From contig JAFYYG010000048.1 of NCBI GenBank assembly GCA_017557625.1, forward strand, positions 1 to 58,659: DNA of 58,659 nt, read 5' to 3'. The notes under the pieces are model-generated. The model saw only the letters and a program-made list of their open reading frames with translations. It was not told where the DNA came from and did not search any database. Source of the stretch: Muribaculaceae bacterium. GTDB lineage: Bacteria; Bacteroidota; Bacteroidia; Bacteroidales; Muribaculaceae. Position numbers and translations under genes: made by a program. How positions within the stretch are numbered: position 1 is the first letter of the stretch; each line of letters starts with the position of its first letter. Of this stretch, positions 21,154-50,832 are shown one piece after another.

Positions 21154-21861
21154 ATGAAGATTAAAGACCTCCTCACCAGTGCCGCCAGCGTGTTCATGCC
21201 ACGCAACTGCTCGGTGTGCGGCAAGCCGCTCAACCTCGACGAGAAGTTCCTCTGCCGACACTGCCTGATGAACATACCTCGCACGCACTATGAGGAAATC
21301 CCTTTCAACCGCTTCGACCAGCTTATGGCGGGCAAAGTGCCTATAGAGCGCTGCGCCAGCTATTTCTTCTACCATAAGAACGACCCTTACGCCTCAATTC
21401 TCCACGACACGAAATACCGCAACATGCCCACGCTAGGACGCTGGCTCACTGAGCGCGCCACACGCGAGATGCTGCCAAGCCACTTCTTCGACGGCATCGA
21501 CGCGATAGTTCCCGTGCCGCTGCACTACAACAAACTTGCCAGCCGCGGATATAACCAAAGTCAATATCTTGCCGAAGGCATATCACGAGCCACTGGCATC
21601 CCTGTGATAAAAGCCCTAAAAGCTATTCACGAACACTCCACCCAAACACACAAAGACGCTGCCGAGCGAATGATGAACACCCAGGGAATGTATGCCGCCA
21701 ATAAACGGAAATGCAAAGGATTAGACGGCAAACACCTGCTCATCGTCGATGACGTTGTGACCACTGGCTCCACCCTACTTGCCTGCGCCACAGCACTAAA
21801 AACCGCAATCCCCACCGTAAAACTCTCCCTCTTCACCCTCGCCGCAGCACAACTGGAATAA
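21154..21861 (+). CDS. comF: ComF-family phosphoribosyltransferase-like protein
   Basis: A 235-residue ComF-type protein. The N-terminal zinc-ribbon has CSVCGKPL and CRHC. The PRTase-like domain has DAIVPVPLH, SRGYNQSQYLAEG and the PRPP-loop-like LLIVDDVVTTGSTLL. ComF acts in natural transformation (ssDNA uptake) in several phyla; no other competence gene is close. Downstream lies a strong hairpin shared with the converging gene. Confidence 0.9.
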   Translation: MKIKDLLTSAASVFMPRNCSVCGKPLNLDEKFLCRHCLMNIPRTHYEEIPFNRFDQLMAGKVPIERCASYFFYHKNDPYASILHDTKYRNMPTLGRWLTERATREMLPSHFFDGIDAIVPVPLHYNKLASRGYNQSQYLAEGISRATGIPVIKALKAIHEHSTQTHKDAAERMMNTQGMYAANKRKCKGLDGKHLLIVDDVVTTGSTLLACATALKTAIPTVKLSLFTLAAAQLE

Positions 21862-41900: not shown

Positions 41901-43987
41901 CTATCGACAACGTGAGCGGCTTCTCGCCAGTATGGTCACTCGACGGCAACTATGGTGTTAAAGGTACTTCTTACAGCAACGGCACCAACTATGCAGCTAC
42001 CAGCCGCCTGATTTCTCCAATCATCGACATGACTGGTTCTGTTCTGCCAAGTCTGACCTTCAGCCACCAAATCAACAAATACTTCAACGATGTTACTTCT
42101 CAATGTAAAGTATTCATCCGCGAGACCAGCAACGGCACAAGCGGCACATGGAAGCAGATTCCTATCACCTTCAGCGACCCAGTTGCTGCCGGTGGTTGGA
42201 CCAACGACATTGCAGTTGTTGACCTTACCGATGTCAATGGTGTAAGCTATGCCGACAAGAAAGTTCAAATCTCGTTCCTCTACACCAACCCAACCGAGGG
42301 CAGTGGTGCAGGTACTTGGGAGATTCAGAACTTCGTAGTTGAAGACCTCAGCGAGTACCGCATGGTTAACAACATTGCCGAGTTCCTCGCTCTTGACAAT
42401 GGCATCACAGCTAAGTTCAAGAATCCTGTTACCGTGCTCTACGACTATGCTCAGTACAGCAGCAGCCAGTATCACGAGTACATCTGGGTTAAGGACGAGA
42501 GTGGTTACATGCAGTTCTACATGGTTCCAACACTCAACAGTGACGAGAACAGCGGCAAGGACGGCAAGGCAGCCTACTACGAGAATGGCGACATCATCCC
42601 AGCTGGATTTGTTGTTACCAAGAACTACTATGAGTATGGCAAGTATGTTCAGGCTTACACCAACGACGCTCTGAACGCCGGCTTCGAGCAAGCAACCCAG
42701 AAGGGTCTTGCCGACCCTGAGCACATGGACTTCGACGTTTTGCATGGTCTTGATGCTACAAACCAAGATAATATCGACACCTGGTGCAACCGCTATATTG
42801 TTCTTGAGAAGATTAAGATTACTAGCAAGAGCGGCAAGAACTTCAGCTTCGCCAACGAGAGTAGCACCGTGAACCACTGCGTAGGCTACAACAAGTACAA
42901 CGGCGACGGCTCATTGCTCAAGGACGGCTCTACAAGTGCCGACGTTACTTTACCTGCTGCTGGTAACACTTACTACAACGTGACTGGTATCATCCAGTTG
43001 TGGCAAGGTGGCTGGGAGTTCATGCCTATCGAGTTCACCGAGTGGAAGGCCGATGAGGTTACTCTGCGTAAGCTCTGTGCCGATGGTGTTGAGACCCACG
43101 AGTACAAAATCAGCAACAACCTGATGGGTGTTTATGCAAGCGCCGATGGCACCAAGCTCTGGGTTAAGGACGACGACGGCCAGTCAATCTGGGAGGTTGA
43201 ACCTGATGCAACTTACAAGGACAACTTCCCCATCGAGGCTGATGGAAACACTCGTCTTGACCAAGCTCACTACGACCAGAGTAACTGGTGCGAGATTCAG
43301 CTTACCGCTGAGAATGCCAGCGACTTCGTGGGCAAGATCATCAATGGTGGTTCTATCCAGGGTACATTCTCTAACAAGACTAACCCAACAATGACTGGTG
43401 TAACCCTTACCAATGATGACATCTACAGTGCAGGTAGCTATGCACCTAACTATTACATGCCTGCAAACTTCTACGGCAACCAACCCTGCTGGACCAGCCA
43501 GCACGGTCAAGAAGGTCATGGCAACTACTTCTTCATGACTCCCAAGCCTCAAGAGTATGCTCAAATCGTTTGGGCTATCTGGGACAGCGAAAATGAGAAG
43601 ATGGTTATCACTGAGGATCCTAAATATAATTCTCACGAGTTCAAGGGCAGCTTCAGCATTAACCTCAACATGAACAGCGGTATTACTGATACTGACGCGC
43701 TTCATGATGGTATGGACGACGGTTTCGCCTATAACTTCTGTGCTATCATCCGCGTAAACAGCTCAAAGGCAGGCAGCGACCTCATGGTTTATCCTGTTGA
43801 CCTCACCTCACCAACCGATCCTGCCACCGCTATCAATAAAGTGGAGACTGGCAATGGTGTGGTTAAGAGCGTGAAATATGTGAATGTTGCCGGTATGGTA
43901 AGCGACACTCCATTCCAGGGCGTGAACATCGTGATTACCGAGTACACCGACGGCACTCGCACTGCAACTAAGATGCTTAACCGCTAA
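38972..43987 (+). CDS. Giant secreted protein with chitobiase-C-like repeats
   Basis: A 1671-residue exported protein; signal peptide MRMKKLLTFLTLLTLSIGVG (start at 38972 or at the second methionine, 38978). At least four chitobiase/hexosaminidase-C-like modules are visible near residues 173-256, 543-630, 631-708 and 873-953 (each with ATIYYTTDGS/T and a FKA(I/V)AV or similar strand). Between them lie repeated beta domains (LEAGKRYILVYETTPAG, LVAGNEYIILAKYNGTNYAM) and, from about 1370, a module also found in the amylase (YDQSNWCEIQL). A sorting tail ends it (VKYVNVAGMVSD ... RTATKMLNR). No catalytic domain is recognised; an adhesin or carbohydrate-binding role is likely. Confidence 0.85.
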   Translation: MRMKKLLTFLTLLTLSIGVGWAATETNELTISKTGATGSTYTDWTYSFENGVSYSGNSANKNDVAIQLRSNNNNSGIVSTTSIGTIKKVVVSWYSETSSGRTLDIYGKNSAYSSPSDLYGSTSTQGTKLGSIVKGTSTELTVDGSYAYIGLRSNNGAMYITSITITWEVGGTTVETVATPTFDPAEGTFTEAQNVTISCATSGATIYYTTDGSAPTTSSSTYSSAIPVSETTTIKAMGVKSDMNNSDVATATYTINIPQPSSEARFERINSTSQLEAGKRYILVYETTPAGMGAISTTSTKYGISETGSSNLTVTNGVATLPSGSAVKPLTLGGNATDGWTFDLDGALLNHTGTKNTLTTGTSNTTWTIAFSGNNATITNKTNTTRVIKYNSTSGQERFACYESGQQAIQLYKEVESTTSNKLYLIGQDMNSQSGWNLSTGPEFTYSNSAGTYAVDAYFDMADRCYFQFVDGLSDSNSNWGGLTGRYYAAGNGDVAVDTYDMDGTVPLGFTNDTQYSPGQYAFSVPAGIYTIVVDKPNWKIYVTQHEVTMTISPNSATFETTKNVTMASNLTERGGKIYYTTDGSDPRDQYSTRQEYTDQLTISATTTFKAVAVLNCIYSDVVEKTYTKAPAAPVISPASCTFNEPLTVSITAESGATIYYTTDGSTPTNESTQYTGSFTVSTTTTVKARAYVGEAYSNIAEATYTYSNVQPSTGDFTLVTEASQLVAGNEYIILAKYNGTNYAMGTISGNKGQSTNDFTLDGTIGVSGSTIAAGTAVNVFTLEASDSNWKFKLSDNSYIEMPSSTNITTGNSGTAMTITLDNNLAEIVGTATPTRLILFSSSNSVFGNYASSNAGASGYSSGVYLYTRATNAVQNPVFSPVPGIYNVDIAVTISCATDGATIYYTTDGTDPTATTGTEYTGEMVVSESTTFKAIAVKDGNTSSVVTAAYTINKNTEIATVTLTYSEPFTAGIGDFTIDNVSGFSPVWSLDGNYGVKGTSYSNGTNYAATSRLISPIIDMTGSVLPSLTFSHQINKYFNDVTSQCKVFIRETSNGTSGTWKQIPITFSDPVAAGGWTNDIAVVDLTDVNGVSYADKKVQISFLYTNPTEGSGAGTWEIQNFVVEDLSEYRMVNNIAEFLALDNGITAKFKNPVTVLYDYAQYSSSQYHEYIWVKDESGYMQFYMVPTLNSDENSGKDGKAAYYENGDIIPAGFVVTKNYYEYGKYVQAYTNDALNAGFEQATQKGLADPEHMDFDVLHGLDATNQDNIDTWCNRYIVLEKIKITSKSGKNFSFANESSTVNHCVGYNKYNGDGSLLKDGSTSADVTLPAAGNTYYNVTGIIQLWQGGWEFMPIEFTEWKADEVTLRKLCADGVETHEYKISNNLMGVYASADGTKLWVKDDDGQSIWEVEPDATYKDNFPIEADGNTRLDQAHYDQSNWCEIQLTAENASDFVGKIINGGSIQGTFSNKTNPTMTGVTLTNDDIYSAGSYAPNYYMPANFYGNQPCWTSQHGQEGHGNYFFMTPKPQEYAQIVWAIWDSENEKMVITEDPKYNSHEFKGSFSINLNMNSGITDTDALHDGMDDGFAYNFCAIIRVNSSKAGSDLMVYPVDLTSPTDPATAINKVETGNGVVKSVKYVNVAGMVSDTPFQGVNIVITEYTDGTRTATKMLNR

Positions 43988-44146: not shown

Positions 44147-44270
44147 GAAGCTACTCGAACGCCGTGCTTACGGCGCAATACTCCAACAACGCCCAGGCTA
44201 CGCTCTCCACCCTGCACTCTCCACCCTCCACTCTCCACTCTCCACCCTCCACTCTCCACTCTCCACTTCA
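44147..44270 (+). repeat. REP composite, copy 1 (hairpin, spacer, heptamer array)
   Basis: Hairpin CGCCGT-GCTT-ACGGCG at 44160-44175, preceded by GCTACTCGAA and followed by a spacer ending CCCAGGCTAC (44198). Then come nine CACYCTN heptamers (44208-44270). The same composite recurs at 45399-45490 and 47653-47749. Confidence 0.85.
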
Positions 44271-44280
44271 CTCTTGAATC

Positions 44281-44322
44281 CTAGGGGCTGTTTTGGTATT
44301 GCGCCGCAAGCGCGGCGTTCAA
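44281..44322 (-). repeat. REP hairpin, copy 4, inverted, with a compensatory base change
   Basis: Read on the minus strand: GAACGCCGC-GCTT-GCGGCGCAATACC. Compared with copies 1 and 2 the closing T-A pair of the stem is replaced by C-G on both sides while the GCTT loop is unchanged. This covariation supports a selected hairpin. With copy 1 it forms an inverted pair just upstream of the RAYT gene. Confidence 0.8.
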
Positions 44323-44370
44323 AAAAGATAAAAAATGCCTCCATCTTTTGTTTATCATCAAGAAAACCGC

Positions 44371-44378
44371 TATTTTTG
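44371..44378 (+). promoter_or_regulatory. -7 box of the RAYT gene, four bases from the ATG
   Basis: TATTTTTG, then CACT and the ATG at 44383. Confidence 0.65.
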
Positions 44379-44382
44379 CACT

Positions 44383-45357
44383 ATGGACGATAACCGCAAT
44401 GAGCTACGGAAGCAGTGGTGGAAGCGAAACGAGGGGAAGTACCAAAAGAAGCCCTCAATGACTCGCCGCAAAGCGGGTCACGACTATTATGGCCACTATG
44501 TATATATGATAACGGTGGTGGTTGCAGGTCGTCGCGATGTGCTGGGTACTCTCTCCGCTCCCGACGCGAGCCACCGCACAGCCTGGGTAAGGGCCACTCC
44601 ACTTGGCGAAGCCGTGAAGCGCTACTGGCACGAGATTCCCTCGCATCACCCTCATGTGAAGCTGCTTAGGAGCCAGCTCATGCCCGACCATTTCCATGGC
44701 ATCCTTCATGTGACAAAGAAAAACGAGGTGCATCTAGGCACAATCATCTCTAGTTTCAAAAAGGCTTGCGATTTCGCGGCAAAAGAGATGAACATCTCAC
44801 GGCCATTGTGGGAAAGAGACTATAACGACCTAATCCTTACCTCAAGAGACCAGCTAAACAACATGATGAACTATGTCCACGACAACCCTCGGCGGCTGTG
44901 GGTGAAGAGGAGCCATAGCGATTTCTTCAAAGTGAGAAAGACTGTGGAGGCCGGCGGAGAGCAGGTGGAGGCATTAGGTAACATGTTTTTGCTCAATTAT
45001 CCACTGATAGCCGCTGTGCAATGCTCACGCAAGTTGACCAAAGAGCAAATTCAGGAGCAAGTGGAGCATTTTCTTGCACTAGCACAGCGTGGCGTAGTAC
45101 TTGTTTCACCTGCCATCAGTCCAGGCGAGAAAGAGGTGATAAAAGCGGCACAAGCTGCGCACTGCAAAGTGATAAAGATAGTGGACAACGGTTTCACATC
45201 TCTCTCCAAGCCTTCGGGTGAGGACTTTGATGCGTGCGCTCGGGGCGACCTGCTGCTCGTCTCACCTTTTGAGCACCAGAACAAGAACACCAGCCTCACC
45301 GAGCAGATATGCTATCACCTCAATGCACTCGCTGCCGCCATCGCCACGACAGAATGA
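44383..45357 (+). CDS. REP-associated Y1 transposase fused to a DprA/SLOG-like domain
   Basis: A 324-residue protein. Residues ~1-195 are a RAYT/IS200-type HUH domain: MPDHFHGILHV supplies H103 and H105, and NYVHDNPRRLW supplies the nucleophile Y164. N-terminal WWKRNEGKYQKK and RRKAGHDYYGHYVYMITVV are usual for the Bacteroidetes group. Residues ~205-324 form a Rossmann-like domain (AAVQCSRKL, RGVVLVSPAISPGEKEVIKA, KVIKIVDNGFTSLSKPSG, ARGDLLLVSPFEHQNK) resembling DprA/SLOG nucleotide- or DNA-binding folds. RAYTs cut and move REP hairpins; copies of a matching hairpin lie on both sides. Start at 44383, directly after a promoter box; an upstream in-frame ATG at 44335 precedes that box. Fusion function unknown. 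Confidence 0.82.
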   Translation: MDDNRNELRKQWWKRNEGKYQKKPSMTRRKAGHDYYGHYVYMITVVVAGRRDVLGTLSAPDASHRTAWVRATPLGEAVKRYWHEIPSHHPHVKLLRSQLMPDHFHGILHVTKKNEVHLGTIISSFKKACDFAAKEMNISRPLWERDYNDLILTSRDQLNNMMNYVHDNPRRLWVKRSHSDFFKVRKTVEAGGEQVEALGNMFLLNYPLIAAVQCSRKLTKEQIQEQVEHFLALAQRGVVLVSPAISPGEKEVIKAAQAAHCKVIKIVDNGFTSLSKPSGEDFDACARGDLLLVSPFEHQNKNTSLTEQICYHLNALAAAIATTE

Positions 45358-45398
45358 GAACACCATAGCTTATTACTTTTGCTACTCGCTCTGCATTG

Positions 45399-45490
45399 AG
45401 GCTACTCGAACGCCGTGCTTACGGCGCAATACCCCAACAACGCCCAGGCTACACCCTGCACCCTCCACTCTGCACTCTACCCTCTACCCT
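45399..45490 (+). repeat. REP composite, copy 2
   Basis: Hairpin CGCCGT-GCTT-ACGGCG at 45411-45426, with AGGCTAC on both sides of the hairpin-spacer unit (about 45400 and 45446). Five heptamer-like units follow (45452-45486). It lies directly downstream of the RAYT gene. Confidence 0.85.
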
Positions 45491-45546: not shown

Positions 45547-47637
45547 ATGATGAGAATGAAGAATCACATATTGTCCCTGCTTGTGCTGGCGCTCTTGGCG
45601 CTAGTGGGGATGGCGTGCGCCAATATAGGCTCTCCTGAGGGTGGGCCGCGCGACTATACTCCACCTGTGATGCTTCGCAGTAATCCCATTCCGGGAGCGG
45701 TGAACTTCAACGGCAAAAAGGTGGAAATCCACTTCGACGAGATAGTGAACATTAAGGACCAGACCACACGCGTGATAGTGTCGCCAGCTCCTAAGGAACA
45801 GCCTGTGATACGCGCTCAGGGCAAGAAAATCACCGTGGAGTTCCAGGATGACCTGGAACCTAACACCACCTATGTCATCGACTTTACCGACGCTATTGAA
45901 GACAACAATGAGGGCAACGTGCTCGACGGTTTCAGCTTCGCATTCTCCACTGGCGAGCATCTCGACTCGCTGCGAGTGAGCGGTATGGTGCTGCGTGCCA
46001 GCGACCTGGAGCCCATGAAAAACGTAGTCGTGGGTCTTCACAGCAACCTCAGCGACTCGGCGTTCTCGACGCTGCCGTTTGACCGCGTGAGCCGCACCAA
46101 CAGCCGCGGCGAGTTCATCTTGCGCAATGTGCCACCCGGCGAGTACCACATCTTCGCGCTGCGCGATGTTGACAACGACTATAAGATGGTGCGCACCGAG
46201 GACATCGCCTTTCTCGACGAGGTGATAGTGCCCAGTGCCAGCGATTTCACTTCGCAAGACACCATTTTCACCTTCGACCACCGCATCGACACCATCATGA
46301 CAGCGGTGCATACCGAGTTCAAGCCTAACGACGTGCTTTTGAGCCTCTTCAATGAGGAGTTCCGCTCGCTCTACTTCAAGAAAAGCGAACGGCAAGGCGA
46401 CAACAAGCTCATGGCGCTATTCTCGGCACCCCTGCCCGAAATGCCCACCACCCGCGTGATACAGCCTAACATCTATAATGATAACTGGCACAAGCTTGAG
46501 ACCCGTGAGGCGCAAGACTCGCTCGTGTATTGGATCACCGACTCCACCATGATAAAGGCCGACACCATCAGACTGGAAATGACCTATCTGCACACCGACG
46601 ACAATGACTCGCTCACGCTAAAGACCGACACCCTTACCTTCGCCAAGCGGCGCAACACCAGCGAGCTGAAGCAACAGGAGAAAGCCGCCAAAGAGCGCGA
46701 GAAACGTGAGAAAGAGCTCGCCAAACTAGAAGAGAAACTCGCCAAGCAACAGCAAGAGGGCAAGGATGTCACCGACCTTGAGAATGAGATAGAAGGACTG
46801 CGAGAGACGCTTAAAGTGAAACCAACGCTGCTAAACATAGAAACAAACAAAGGCACTACTGAAATCACCGACTCGCTATATATAAAAGCCAGCTCTCCAA
46901 TAGGATATATCGACCCTGGTGGCGTGCATCTAGAGATGATGAATCCCGACAGCACATGGCAGGCGGTGACACTGCCCGCCCTAGTGCCCTGTAATGAGTG
47001 GAACATCTATCGCTATGTGGCACCCATGGAGCTGAAACCCAACGCCGACTACCGCATCACTATCGACTCGCTCGCCGTCACCTCAATCTATGGTATCCCA
47101 TGCGACACAGTGCGCTCAAACTTCAAGGTGAAAGGCGAGGAGGAATATGCCAACCTACACATCAACTGCCTTGGATTTGAGGGAAAGGCATTCGCCCAAC
47201 TGCTAAACAAGCAGGGTACAGTGGTACGCACAGTGGATGTGCTCGGGAAATATGCCGACTTCTATGACGTGCCGCCTGAGACCTACTATGTGATGATGGT
47301 GCTCGATGCCAACGGCAATGGGCGCTGGGACACCGGCAATTACAATGAGCACCTTCAGCCCGAGGACGTGTTTTACTACCATAACCCCGTCAAGCTAAAG
47401 AAATTCAGCGACATGACGCTCACATGGAACATCTACGAAATGCCTGTTGACAAGCAGAAACCCGAGGCAATTCGCAAATTCCACCCCGAAGAACGCGACA
47501 CCAAGCTGAAGAAGGAGGAGGAAAAGAAGACAAACAACAACGAAGAGGAAGAAGACGAGTTCAACAGCAACGGATTCATCAACAACAGCTCCTACAGCGG
47601 CGATAAATACCGCGACACCAAGCGAGGGGTGAAGTAA
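45547..47637 (+). CDS. Large Ig-like-domain lipoprotein
   Basis: A 696-residue lipoprotein (signal MMRMKNHILSLLVLALLALV, lipobox LVGMA-C24). The first domain (about 35-140; PPVMLRSNPIPGAVNF, VEIHFDEIVN, LEPNTTYVIDFTDAIEDNN) is a bacterial Ig-like Big_5 type. A carboxypeptidase-regulatory-like domain follows (about 145-225; VRGEF-like strand NSRGEFILRNVPPGEYHIFA). A lysine/glutamate coiled coil spans about 365-425, then further beta domains, with a charged tail. This architecture is common in Bacteroidetes envelope proteins of unknown role. The start among three close methionines is uncertain (45547, 45550 or 45556). Confidence 0.83.
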   Translation: MMRMKNHILSLLVLALLALVGMACANIGSPEGGPRDYTPPVMLRSNPIPGAVNFNGKKVEIHFDEIVNIKDQTTRVIVSPAPKEQPVIRAQGKKITVEFQDDLEPNTTYVIDFTDAIEDNNEGNVLDGFSFAFSTGEHLDSLRVSGMVLRASDLEPMKNVVVGLHSNLSDSAFSTLPFDRVSRTNSRGEFILRNVPPGEYHIFALRDVDNDYKMVRTEDIAFLDEVIVPSASDFTSQDTIFTFDHRIDTIMTAVHTEFKPNDVLLSLFNEEFRSLYFKKSERQGDNKLMALFSAPLPEMPTTRVIQPNIYNDNWHKLETREAQDSLVYWITDSTMIKADTIRLEMTYLHTDDNDSLTLKTDTLTFAKRRNTSELKQQEKAAKEREKREKELAKLEEKLAKQQQEGKDVTDLENEIEGLRETLKVKPTLLNIETNKGTTEITDSLYIKASSPIGYIDPGGVHLEMMNPDSTWQAVTLPALVPCNEWNIYRYVAPMELKPNADYRITIDSLAVTSIYGIPCDTVRSNFKVKGEEEYANLHINCLGFEGKAFAQLLNKQGTVVRTVDVLGKYADFYDVPPETYYVMMVLDANGNGRWDTGNYNEHLQPEDVFYYHNPVKLKKFSDMTLTWNIYEMPVDKQKPEAIRKFHPEERDTKLKKEEEKKTNNNEEEEDEFNSNGFINNSSYSGDKYRDTKRGVK

Positions 47638-47652
47638 TTACACGTCTAGCAC

Positions 47653-47749
47653 GAGGCACCTTGAACGCCGTGCTTACGGCGCACCACACCAACAACACCC
47701 AGGCACCTTTTCCAATCTCTCCACTCTTCACCCTCCACCCTCCACTCTC
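47653..47749 (+). repeat. REP composite, copy 3
   Basis: Hairpin CGCCGT-GCTT-ACGGCG at 47666-47681. Here the bordering direct repeats are AGGCACCTT (about 47654-47662 and 47701-47709), not AGGCTAC as in copy 2. Four heptamers follow at 47722-47749. Confidence 0.82.
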
Positions 47750-47813
47750 ACATAGAAAAACTAAAAAATCTCAACAAGTGGTAAAAAAATTTTTCTACGT
47801 TAATAATTTGTTG

Positions 47814-47925: not shown

Positions 47926-50832
47926 ATGCAAACTAAAGGTTTTATTTTAACTATTGCTGCTGCATTAGTGTTGATATGCATTTACTACCTGTCTTTCTCA
48001 TTTGTAGCTAACCACTACGAGAATGAGGCCGAGGCCTATGCCCTGAAAAAGGCTAATATCGATAAGCCCGACTTGACCTCTGGTAGTGCATACATGAATG
48101 CATATAACGAATACATCAGCACAATTGAGAAAAAAAAGGTGTGGCTTGGCGACACCTACAAGCAAGTCCGCGAGAAGCAATTAGGTTTGGGTCTTGACTT
48201 GAAGGGCGGTATGAACGTAACCCTTGAGATTAAAGTTCCAAATGTACTAAAATCACTTGCTGGCATCCAAAAAGAGGGACAAGACAAAAACTTCGACAAA
48301 GTGCTCAGCGAACTCAACGAAGATAGCGAAAACTACGTTGCCGAGTTCTGCGAGAAGTACAATGCCACTGGAAGCAACGTGAGGAACCTCTTCATAAAGA
48401 GAGTACAAAAGATTAATGATAATCGAAATGCCAGTGACAAGGATGTGCAGAAATACATCGAGGAAGAAGTGGATAAGGTTATCGAGAATTCCTATAAGGT
48501 GCTTCGCACACGTATCGACCAATTTGGTGTGATAGCTCCAAATATCCAACAGCTGGCAAAGAAGGGCCGCATCCTGCTTGAGTTGCCAGGTATCAAAGAT
48601 CCTGACCGTGTGCTCGAGCTTCTCAAGAAAGCTGCCAACCTTGAGTTCTATGCCACATATGAATATAGTGGGATTGCCGATAAACTCAACCAACTTAGTC
48701 AACAATATGCATCGAGTACAAATGCCGACACTACTACAGTTAAAAAGAACCTCATGACAATGCTCGGTGGTGTCAACTCTAATTGGTGCGTTGCAGGTTA
48801 CGTGCTTGCAGCCGACACCGCAGCTGTAAACAGAATCATAAATAGTGACATCGCTGAAAAGATTCTGCCAGGTGATTTAAAATTATGCTGGACAGTGAAA
48901 TCAGAGAGCGAAGAAGGACAACCCGAGAAATTCGCGCTTATTGCACTGCGTTCCAACAATGATGGTACTCCAGCCCTCACAGGTGAAGTGGTAACCAGCG
49001 CTTCAACCTCTTATGAGGATCGCCAAACCAAAGTCAGCATGACTATGGATAAAGAAGGCGCTAAAAAATGGGCCCGCATCACCGCCGAGAACATTGGCAA
49101 ACCTGTAGCAATCGTCCTTGATAACCAGGTTTACTCTTACCCAAGAGTCAACCAAGAGATCACTGGTGGACGTAGCGAAATTTCTGGAAGCTTCACTCCT
49201 GAGGAGGCAACCGACCTTGCAAACGTGCTCGAGAGCGGCAAGATGGACGTTCAGCCCGAAGTAATCAGCCAGCGCATTATTGGTCCATCACTAGGCCAAG
49301 AGTCTATCAACAAGGGACTTACCTCGTTTATCGTGGCTCTCGTGCTGCTGATGATATTCATGGTTTGCGTATATGGTATCAAGGCTGGCTCCATCGCCAA
49401 TATGGGTCTGATATTCAACCTCTTCTTTACTGCTGGTATCCTTGCCTCGTTCCAAACAGTGCTCACCCTGCCAGGTATCGCCGGTATCGTGCTCGCACTT
49501 GGTATGGCGGTTGACGCCAACGTGCTTATCTTTGAGCGCATCAAGGAAGAGCTGCGCTCCGGCAAGGGTCTTAAGGCTGCTGTCACCGATGGTTATGGCA
49601 ACGCTTTCTCGGCAATCTTCGACTCCAACTTGACCACTATCATCACCATGGTCATTCTGGCGTTCCTCGGAACAGGCCCAATCAAGGGTTTTGCCATCAC
49701 CACCATCGTGGGTATCTGCTGCTCGTTCTTTACCGCAGTTTATCTCACCCGCATCATCCTTGAGTGGTTCATCAAGAAGGGCTGGTATGCTAATATCACC
49801 TTCTCTACCCCATGGACTCGCCACTTGATGGAGAACACCAATTTCAACTTCATGGGCAAGCGCAAGATGAGCACCACCATCGTGGGCATCATCATTTTGG
49901 CTGTCGTTGCCATGTTCTTCATTCCTGGACGCGGCCTCAACCGTGGTATCGACTTCTCGGGTGGACGCAACTATATTATTGAGTTTGACCAACCTGTTAA
50001 TGTTGAGAACCTCAAAGATAAGGTTAAAGAAAACTTGCCAAAGTCAAGTACTTCGGTTATCACTATCAACAACGATAGAACCGTGCGTGTTTCTACTAAC
50101 TTCAAGAATAGCGAAGAATACGACACCAAGGTAGTTGACCAAGAGATTGAGACAGCTCTCTATAACAGCCTCAAGGATGCCTTCAAGGGAAAAATCTCTC
50201 AGAAAGAGTTCAGTACCGCCAACGACAAGACTGGCATCATCGATGTTGAGCACGTTGGACCATCTATCGCTAAGGACATGACACGCTCAGCAATTTGGGC
50301 TGTGTTCTTCGCCCTTATCGCTATGGCTCTCTACATCCTGCTCCGTTTCCGCAACGTGGCATTCTCGGTTGGCGCTCTCGCAGCTGTGGCATTCACCGCA
50401 TTTTTGGTAATCGGTGTTTACACCCTGCACGGACTGCTGCCATTTGCCATGGAGATCGACCAGACGTTTATCGCGGCCATCCTCACCGTGATTGGTTATC
50501 AGGTGAACGATACCGTGGTGGTATTCGACCGTGTGCGTGAGTACCGCAAGCTCTATCCAAAGCAAGACCTCAACCTCACCTTCAACAAGGCGCTTAACAG
50601 CACCCTTGCCCGTACAATGATGACCTCAATCACCACCTTGCTGGTATTGCTCGTTATCTTCTTCCTGGGCGGTGACTCTATCCGCAGCTTCATCTTCGCG
50701 ATGATCCTCGGTGTGATAATCGGTACTTGCTCGTCACTCTTCATCGCCTCGCCAGTGGCTTACTCTATCACCAAAGCCCTTGGCCGCCGCAAAGAAGAGA
50801 AGAAGCTCAACACTGTTAAGGCTTCTAAATAA
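47926..50832 (+). CDS. secDF: Fused protein translocase subunit SecDF
   Basis: A 968-residue inner-membrane protein joining SecD and SecF, which use the proton gradient to help pull exported proteins through SecYEG. The SecD half starts with one membrane helix and KQLGLGLDLKGGMNVTLEI (the SecD D1 motif), has a long periplasmic region and five C-terminal helices (LGMAVDANVLIFERIKEEL). The SecF half begins near residue 640 (KRKMSTTIVGIIILAV) with RGLNRGIDFSGGRNYIIEF and later VIGYQVNDTVVVFDRVREYR. The fusion is the normal Bacteroidetes form. The many large secreted proteins nearby depend on this pathway. Confidence 0.96.
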   Translation: MQTKGFILTIAAALVLICIYYLSFSFVANHYENEAEAYALKKANIDKPDLTSGSAYMNAYNEYISTIEKKKVWLGDTYKQVREKQLGLGLDLKGGMNVTLEIKVPNVLKSLAGIQKEGQDKNFDKVLSELNEDSENYVAEFCEKYNATGSNVRNLFIKRVQKINDNRNASDKDVQKYIEEEVDKVIENSYKVLRTRIDQFGVIAPNIQQLAKKGRILLELPGIKDPDRVLELLKKAANLEFYATYEYSGIADKLNQLSQQYASSTNADTTTVKKNLMTMLGGVNSNWCVAGYVLAADTAAVNRIINSDIAEKILPGDLKLCWTVKSESEEGQPEKFALIALRSNNDGTPALTGEVVTSASTSYEDRQTKVSMTMDKEGAKKWARITAENIGKPVAIVLDNQVYSYPRVNQEITGGRSEISGSFTPEEATDLANVLESGKMDVQPEVISQRIIGPSLGQESINKGLTSFIVALVLLMIFMVCVYGIKAGSIANMGLIFNLFFTAGILASFQTVLTLPGIAGIVLALGMAVDANVLIFERIKEELRSGKGLKAAVTDGYGNAFSAIFDSNLTTIITMVILAFLGTGPIKGFAITTIVGICCSFFTAVYLTRIILEWFIKKGWYANITFSTPWTRHLMENTNFNFMGKRKMSTTIVGIIILAVVAMFFIPGRGLNRGIDFSGGRNYIIEFDQPVNVENLKDKVKENLPKSSTSVITINNDRTVRVSTNFKNSEEYDTKVVDQEIETALYNSLKDAFKGKISQKEFSTANDKTGIIDVEHVGPSIAKDMTRSAIWAVFFALIAMALYILLRFRNVAFSVGALAAVAFTAFLVIGVYTLHGLLPFAMEIDQTFIAAILTVIGYQVNDTVVVFDRVREYRKLYPKQDLNLTFNKALNSTLARTMMTSITTLLVLLVIFFLGGDSIRSFIFAMILGVIIGTCSSLFIASPVAYSITKALGRRKEEKKLNTVKASK

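Follow-up and report, generated by a model that had tools for sequence, protein, structure and literature searches.

The window considered in this work is a stretch of 58,659 nt from a Muribaculaceae bacterium (Bacteroidales), corresponding to positions 1-58,659 of the forward strand of contig JAFYYG010000048.1 in assembly GCA_017557625.1. It bears a gene for a protein of 324 aa in which a nuclease of the REP-associated tyrosine transposase (RAYT) type is followed by a C-terminal domain resembling part of DprA, and the gene is accompanied by palindromes similar to repetitive extragenic palindromes (REPs). A second in-frame ATG at 44335 would extend the product to 340 aa. The features of the locus are given below, with residue conservation counted over 74 aligned rows (ssDNA, single-stranded DNA; Hp, Helicobacter pylori; Sp, Streptococcus pneumoniae).

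44383..45357, + strand: RAYT-DprA fusion gene (protein P0001), 324 aa plus stop, start ATG at 44383
44464..44952, + strand: HUH/Y1 nuclease domain, residues 28-190
44689..44697, + strand: HUH motif H103-F-H105; H103 in 73/74 rows, H105 in 74/74 rows
44872..44874, + strand: catalytic-type tyrosine Y164, within Y-V-H-D-N-P; Y164, N168 and P169 each in 74/74 rows
44968..45354, + strand: DprA-like half-Rossmann domain, residues ~196-324
45028..45030, + strand: R216, aligned with the Arg through which DprA binds ssDNA (Hp R52, Sp R115); R in 67/74 rows
45118..45129, + strand: loop S246..E249 (S-P-G-E), aligned with the G-I-D loop of DprA; S246 and E249 in 74/74 rows
44150-44201, - strand: REP copy upstream of the gene, stem 44159-44176
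44276-44327, + strand: REP copy upstream, in opposite orientation, stem 44301-44318
45401-45452, - strand: REP copy downstream, starting 44 bases after the stop codon, stem 45410-45427
47656-47707, - strand: fourth REP copy, between the two genes that follow
45553-47637: downstream neighbour gene
47926-50832: gene after the downstream neighbour, secDF by eye

A RAYT-type nuclease with a DprA-like C-terminal domain

The N-terminal part of the protein matches the NCBIfam family REP_Tyr_transpos (E-value = 6.9e-12, 45.5 bits), which was also matched by 50/50 members of alignment A2 at E ≤ 0.1. Alignments A2 and A4 consist of the window protein and the rows of 49 relatives; alignment A1 comprises 73 of the 75 non-redundant rows, L032 and L055 being excluded for their long N-terminal extensions. 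The HUH motif and the single catalytic-type tyrosine with its Y---NP signature are those by which RAYT/TnpA-REP proteins are recognized, and the domain fits the IS200/TnpA-REP fold. A first-pass annotation of this DNA had described a RAYT transposase of 324 residues with H103-F-H105, Y164 and the stretches SPAISPGEKEV and ARGDLLLVSP. The reading frame and all of these motifs were found as placed, and the family match together with the conserved HUH and Y---NP residues supports a RAYT-type HUH nuclease.

The remainder of the protein had been assigned to a DprA/SLOG domain. Structure prediction and profile comparison agreed with this as regards the type of fold, which is predicted to be that of DprA, and restricted the likeness to the first part of the DprA Rossmann fold. 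The matched stretch covers residues 12-153 of HpDprA and 72-218 of SpDprA, where the window protein ends, while the Rossmann domain of HpDprA is described as spanning residues 12 to 217 (PMC4489622). As in DprA (H. pylori 4ljk/4ljr, S. pneumoniae 3uqz), of which the first ~140 Rossmann residues are thus represented, the domain starts with G-N-x-x-LL-x-x-P..V-x-x-S-R-x-x-T and carries an Arg at the ssDNA-binding place. Specifically, R216 falls on the first R of the HpDprA motif GTRR, which judging from the motif would be R52, and R52 is the equivalent of SpDprA R115, the published ssDNA-binding residue (PMC4489622, PMC4066776). Three residues of the C-terminal domain, S246, E249 and P277, are invariant (74/74 rows). 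Alignment of the domain with DprA by hhalign gave a probability of 39% and a score of 33.3, with 40 column shuffles reaching at most 23.8, a result that is modest alone. PF02481 was not among the Pfam families hit by 50 members, and it finds one other gene in the genome; single-sequence searches of the C-terminal region in Pfam, NCBIfam and PDB returned nothing useful, so that profiles and folds alone gave matches.

Selective constraint on the added domain is strong. The ratio of non-synonymous to synonymous substitution rates (dN/dS), computed with six orthologues from 6 of the 8 loci L009-L016, was 0.042-0.111 in the C-terminal domain versus 0.093-0.153 in the nuclease and lower in 6/6 pairs, the ratios being rough because dS exceeds 1 in 10 of the 12 domain comparisons. 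What the domain lacks is equally specific. The dimer zone of SpDprA has been mapped to G249, S250, I263, Q264, L269, T271 and D275; E235, M238, D243 and E265 are among those assigned to contact with RecA (PMC4066776). All these residues (SpDprA 235-275) lie past position 218, where the match ends. Since this stretch is missing, RecA loading through the known surface of DprA is unlikely. The window domain further differs from DprA in having neither the SAM nor the winged-helix part.

Palindromes at the locus and across the family

Three hairpins of one family had been reported around the gene as candidate REPs. We were able to identify all three and a fourth one at 47656-47707, and to recognize them as members of a dispersed, REP-like family. 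BLAST located the family at 16 places in the whole assembly (E ≤ 2.9e-4), a 17th at E = 0.16 being left uncounted. The 16 copies align over 52 columns, consisting of the 5' tag AGCCTGGGCGTTGTTGATGTATTG, the stem CGCCGY/RCGGCG closed by a loop of 4 variable bases, and TTC; on the REP strand GTATTG comes before the hairpin. The stem is mismatched in one of the 16 copies; pairing amounts to 99.1% of cells, and two-sided change (UA to CG, 4/16) is limited to a single pair. A covariance model recovered the four window copies with E-values from 8e-22 to 1.5e-17 (155 kb searched, all four belonging to the 16-sequence training set of the model). Outside the window, 11/12 copies are located in non-coding DNA, against a background non-coding fraction of 0.10 by the same open reading frame rule. 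The fusion gene is thus flanked by its own palindromes, further copies of which are scattered between genes, a pattern by which RAYT genes are recognized.

Concerning the fourth copy, no REP hairpin was found in the equivalent gap of two relatives (G001, G058), and the boundaries of a mobile unit could not be read from these empty sites because the intergenic DNA of the relatives is too diverged. Rfam returned one chance-level match, which does not touch the hairpins. Pyrimidine-rich CTCCACYC repeats adjoin the window copies (44207-44274, 45450-45490, 47708-47750) and may be a companion of the REP element or a site preference. A weak fifth match of the covariance model at 21399-21436 (14.7 bits, E-value = 0.011) is probably chance or a relic.

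The association of gene and palindrome extends beyond the window. After removal of near-copies, 55 of 105 family loci were available for flank tests, and the upstream and downstream flanks of the same gene shared a segment of at least 30 bits in 20/55 loci, versus 22/2970 mismatched flank pairs. A perfect stem of 5 or more was present in 14/20 of the shared segments (random segments: mean 5.5, maximum 10) and a stem of 6 or more in 11/20 (random mean 2.4, maximum 7). An unbiased scan for hexamers beside hairpins placed GTATTG first, at 9/114 loci, 7 of the 9 being the window gene or its close orthologues. Hairpins tagged with GTA.T[GA] were found at 8/18 non-redundant loci of the same genus (shuffled mean 0.3, maximum 2) and on both sides in 5 (shuffled 0), and outside the genus of the window the tag was at chance (3/37 loci, shuffled maximum 3). 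Flank hairpins with GT[AG]G are near chance in the genus (5/18 loci; shuffled mean 3.0, maximum 6) and somewhat above it in the other loci (10/37; shuffled mean 4.2, maximum 8). The paralogue L002 carries a different palindrome on both flanks, with 5 genome copies at up to 3 mismatches and none for the reversed control. Several paralogues thus have their own palindromes beside them, a known trait of RAYTs (PMC6006769).

Distribution of the fusion and history of the locus

A scan of genome contigs led to 103 relatives, of which 80 were kept, all matching to residue 293 or beyond; they were selected with peptide patterns from both domains, which favours full fusions. According to the record titles they come from Prevotella, other Bacteroidales, Paludibacteraceae, Kiritimatiellae, Lentisphaerae and Verrucomicrobia, and the isolates carrying the fusion include Prevotella lacticifex and Hallella mizrahii. 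A match was present in 48/61 genomes of the genus. In a sample of the phylum, 137/296 genomes matched the profile, and among the matches listed every row from other genomes ends at profile position 207 or before, i.e., belongs to RAYTs without the domain. A nuclease-domain tree placed 48 fusions and 12 fusion-free RAYTs, the latter sampled with the sequence or profile of the fusion itself, on opposite sides of a 100/100 branch. A single origin of the fusion is not contradicted by these sequences. The same-genome relatives among the matches listed share 32-48% identity in the aligned parts and none comes close to being identical, although an assembly of 76 contigs may collapse identical copies. 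Viral, phage and plasmid collections held no full-length relative, one plasmid giving a 25% N-terminal match, and Foldseek against viral models found nothing at E = 0.001.

Synteny was studied through the gene downstream of the fusion. Upstream of this same neighbour, the fusion is present in the window genome (G000), G058 and G011, and it was not found within 1500 bases in G001, G010, G046, G065 and G069. The order and orientation of the palindromes (-, +, gene, -) is identical in G000 and G058. In G011 they are established upstream only, three facing against the gene and the nearest, a weaker one, facing with it (E-value = 0.0042), while G065 has an orthologue (64%) at another place with four partial REP copies just downstream. 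Copies were counted by the covariance model in the 61 genus genomes, with 96 candidates scored per genome and strict filters, so that the counts are lower bounds. The four genomes with an orthologue of at least 64% all hold copies: at least 23 in G000, 19 in G058, 9 in G065 and 5 in G011. Together with G001 and G010 they make six REP-rich genomes. All six belong to the group formed by G000 and the seven genomes closest to it in the neighbouring gene (71-86% identity), and the REP family is therefore clade-bound. The other two of the seven nearest, G046 and G069, have neither REP copies nor a close orthologue, and in the remaining 55 of the 61 genomes eleven have one copy and 44 none.

Some further observations concern these relatives. 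REP copies form direct arrays in G001 (L214, four units ~91 bases apart at G001:C168 1822-2148) and in G010 (L217-L220, units often ~73 bases apart), whereas the REPIN pairs known elsewhere are inverted. In the 1500 bases upstream of the neighbouring gene in G001 (L136) and G046 (L140), a small gene, by eye of the four-helix S23 type, stands in place of the fusion, which looks like an exchange of accessory genes at one spot. Finally, an N-terminal fragment of the family in the window genome (G000:C35:9565-9759) and a gene split in two in G010 (G010:C3:76326-77347) are remnants by which turnover is shown.

Proposed role, rival explanations and gene neighbourhood

RAYTs are a standard case of a domesticated transposase. 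We consider, with a probability of about 0.55, that the window gene and its palindromes form a REPtron of a new RAYT subclass, in which the HUH domain would cut beside the REP and the half-DprA domain would hold the ssDNA beside the hairpin. The TnpA-REP of Escherichia coli is specific for the REP strand, depends on GTAG and cleaves at a CT next to the hairpin; in Marinomonas the tag, separated by two bases from a stem of 5 bp, contributes to the choice of the cut site (PMC8266576). By analogy, the HUH domain would bind the REP hairpin when this is exposed as a single strand, GTATTG would take the place of the GTAG guide, its GTAT being two bases from the 6-bp core stem, and Y164 would cut next to the hairpin. 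The half-DprA domain, via its R216 face, would then keep hold of the single strand that flanks the hairpin, or shield it, until the strand is joined at another site. Because the ssDNA-binding Arg is kept and the dimer and RecA surfaces are gone, we infer that the domain is best read as a single-strand holder. More tentatively, and with the odds on balance against it, the family as a whole may be a 'cut-and-hold' machine made of a REP nuclease and half a DprA without its RecA surface, in which the non-autonomous palindrome would be captured and carried as protein-bound ssDNA and not in the manner of an insertion sequence (IS), and which would have arisen once and radiated into hairpin-specific paralogues in gut Bacteroidota, Verrucomicrobia, Kiritimatiellae and Lentisphaerae.

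A number of findings weigh against the REPtron reading. The REP_Tyr_transpos score of 45.5 bits is below the curated cut-off of 80, and the tag of the palindromes is GTATTG and not the canonical GT[AG]G guide, which is also lacking in RAYT subclasses 2.6 and 3 (PMC6006769). Folding of the single DNA strand clearly beats shuffles in one of the four window copies (z = -0.89, -2.84, -0.73 and -0.84). Binding of ssDNA by the C-terminal domain is suggested by a predicted fold and one conserved Arg. As to the other basic residues of DprA, at the place of HpK137 (= SpK202), residue 307, the R found in 61/74 rows speaks for the reading, but the window protein itself has E, and the third basic residue of HpDprA, R143, is replaced by Leu; both placements (residues 307 and 313) come from a profile alignment that is weak. 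The basic patch of SpDprA has five further residues, of which SpK225 lies beyond the matched part. Across the family, 35/55 loci have no shared flank segment at 30 bits and 6/20 of the shared segments hold no stem of 5. In addition, two copy-rich relatives, G001 (at least 26 copies) and G010 (at least 80), lack an intact RAYT. In G001 (89% complete) no RAYT was detected even at E = 0.1, and in G010 (97% complete) the only one is a broken paralogue, with no REP of the window family in its 7-kb locus (E = 1). Either the copies persist after loss of the gene, or these two assemblies are missing it. The comparison of hairpin numbers with and without the gene, suggested by the first-pass annotation, therefore turned out as expected on one side, 4/4 orthologue genomes holding 5-23 copies, and not on the other, 2 of the other 57 holding 26 and 80, which weakens the coupling of RAYT and REP without refuting it.

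These same two relatives, and the weak folding of three window copies, are what speaks for the palindromes being ordinary terminators or unrelated nearby repeats with the gene as a passenger. We regard this as very unlikely, given that flank sharing is far above that of mismatched pairs, that different paralogues adjoin different palindromes, that REP placement is conserved in G058 and that the conserved element includes no T-run. An active IS200-like insertion sequence that transposes as a single complete unit is extremely unlikely: the HUH/Y1 core is like that of IS608 TnpA and the gene is present or absent at one locus between relatives, but the small palindromes are multicopy and whole units are not, the listed same-genome relatives being diverged as described above, with the same reservation about collapsed copies. 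As for the C-terminal domain, a SLOG-type pocket binding a nucleotide or small molecule at the S246/E249 loop could gate the nuclease, so that REPs would be cut conditionally. This is possible, if doubtful; none of the three invariant residues is a basic ssDNA residue, and nucleotide-binding SLOG relatives (LOG with AMP) do appear in the fold comparison, at a lower Z of 5.8. The domain might instead be a platform for protein contact or oligomerization that handles neither DNA nor ligand and serves to form dimers or to dock onto SSB, RecA or the replication fork. TnpA-REP is a monomer in its known structure, so that an added dimerizing domain would make sense. DprA itself dimerizes via its Rossmann domain (PMC4489622), but the published dimer zone and RecA-contact residues are precisely those absent from the window domain, and we judge a platform unlikely.

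Compared with known systems, the window protein shares with E. coli TnpA-REP (PDB 4er8; class 2, Quentin et al., 2018, PMC6006769) the HUH motif with a single Tyr, the class-2 Y---NP signature, the IS200-type fold and, on either side of the gene, palindromes of its own family, which has other copies dispersed between genes. It differs in the additional DprA-like domain, in the GTATTG tag and in a short stem without bulge and with a 4-base loop. RAYT subclasses 2.1 and 2.3 also combine the RAYT core with a large conserved C-terminal addition, although this is HTH/DnaA_C-like in 2.1 and subclass-specific in 2.3, and no REPs were found beside their genes (PMC6006769). Subclass 2.6 resembles the window gene in belonging to Bacteroidetes and in having atypical structures on its flanks that recur at other places in the genome, but its members are of 179 aa with the motif NH[LIV]H, and the passages compared describe no such C-terminal domain (PMC6006769). 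Neither DprA nor Rossmann occurs in the main text of that paper, and no paper was found to announce a RAYT-DprA fusion in its title or the opening of its abstract, although full texts may still mention one. The idea of a defence-like system, raised in the first-pass annotation, is unsupported: PADLOC had no match for the protein at E = 0.01, and its two neighbours had one weak match each (E-value = 0.0025 and 0.004). ShosA of E. coli is a stand-alone DprA-like protein. Its 308-residue chain (PDB 8zva) has no such nuclease, and the window protein has no PADLOC match. We have filed RAYT-DprA as a new RAYT variant or subclass, not as a DprA or a defence system.

The spread of REPs is poorly understood (PMC8266576). 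With its built-in DprA-like domain under strong constraint, this widespread RAYT subclass hints that the missing step may be single-strand capture, and it shows the DprA architecture reused without its RecA surface. Related gut bacteria have the same pairing of transposase and DprA-like domain, which could contribute to an explanation of hairpin spread.

Upstream of the fusion gene lies a large protein, of which the last ~50 codons (43818-43987) are conserved in L136, L140, L141 and L142 with 73-89% DNA identity. The sequence preceding them matches only in short stretches or not at all, which is what a shared C-terminal sorting tail would lead one to expect.
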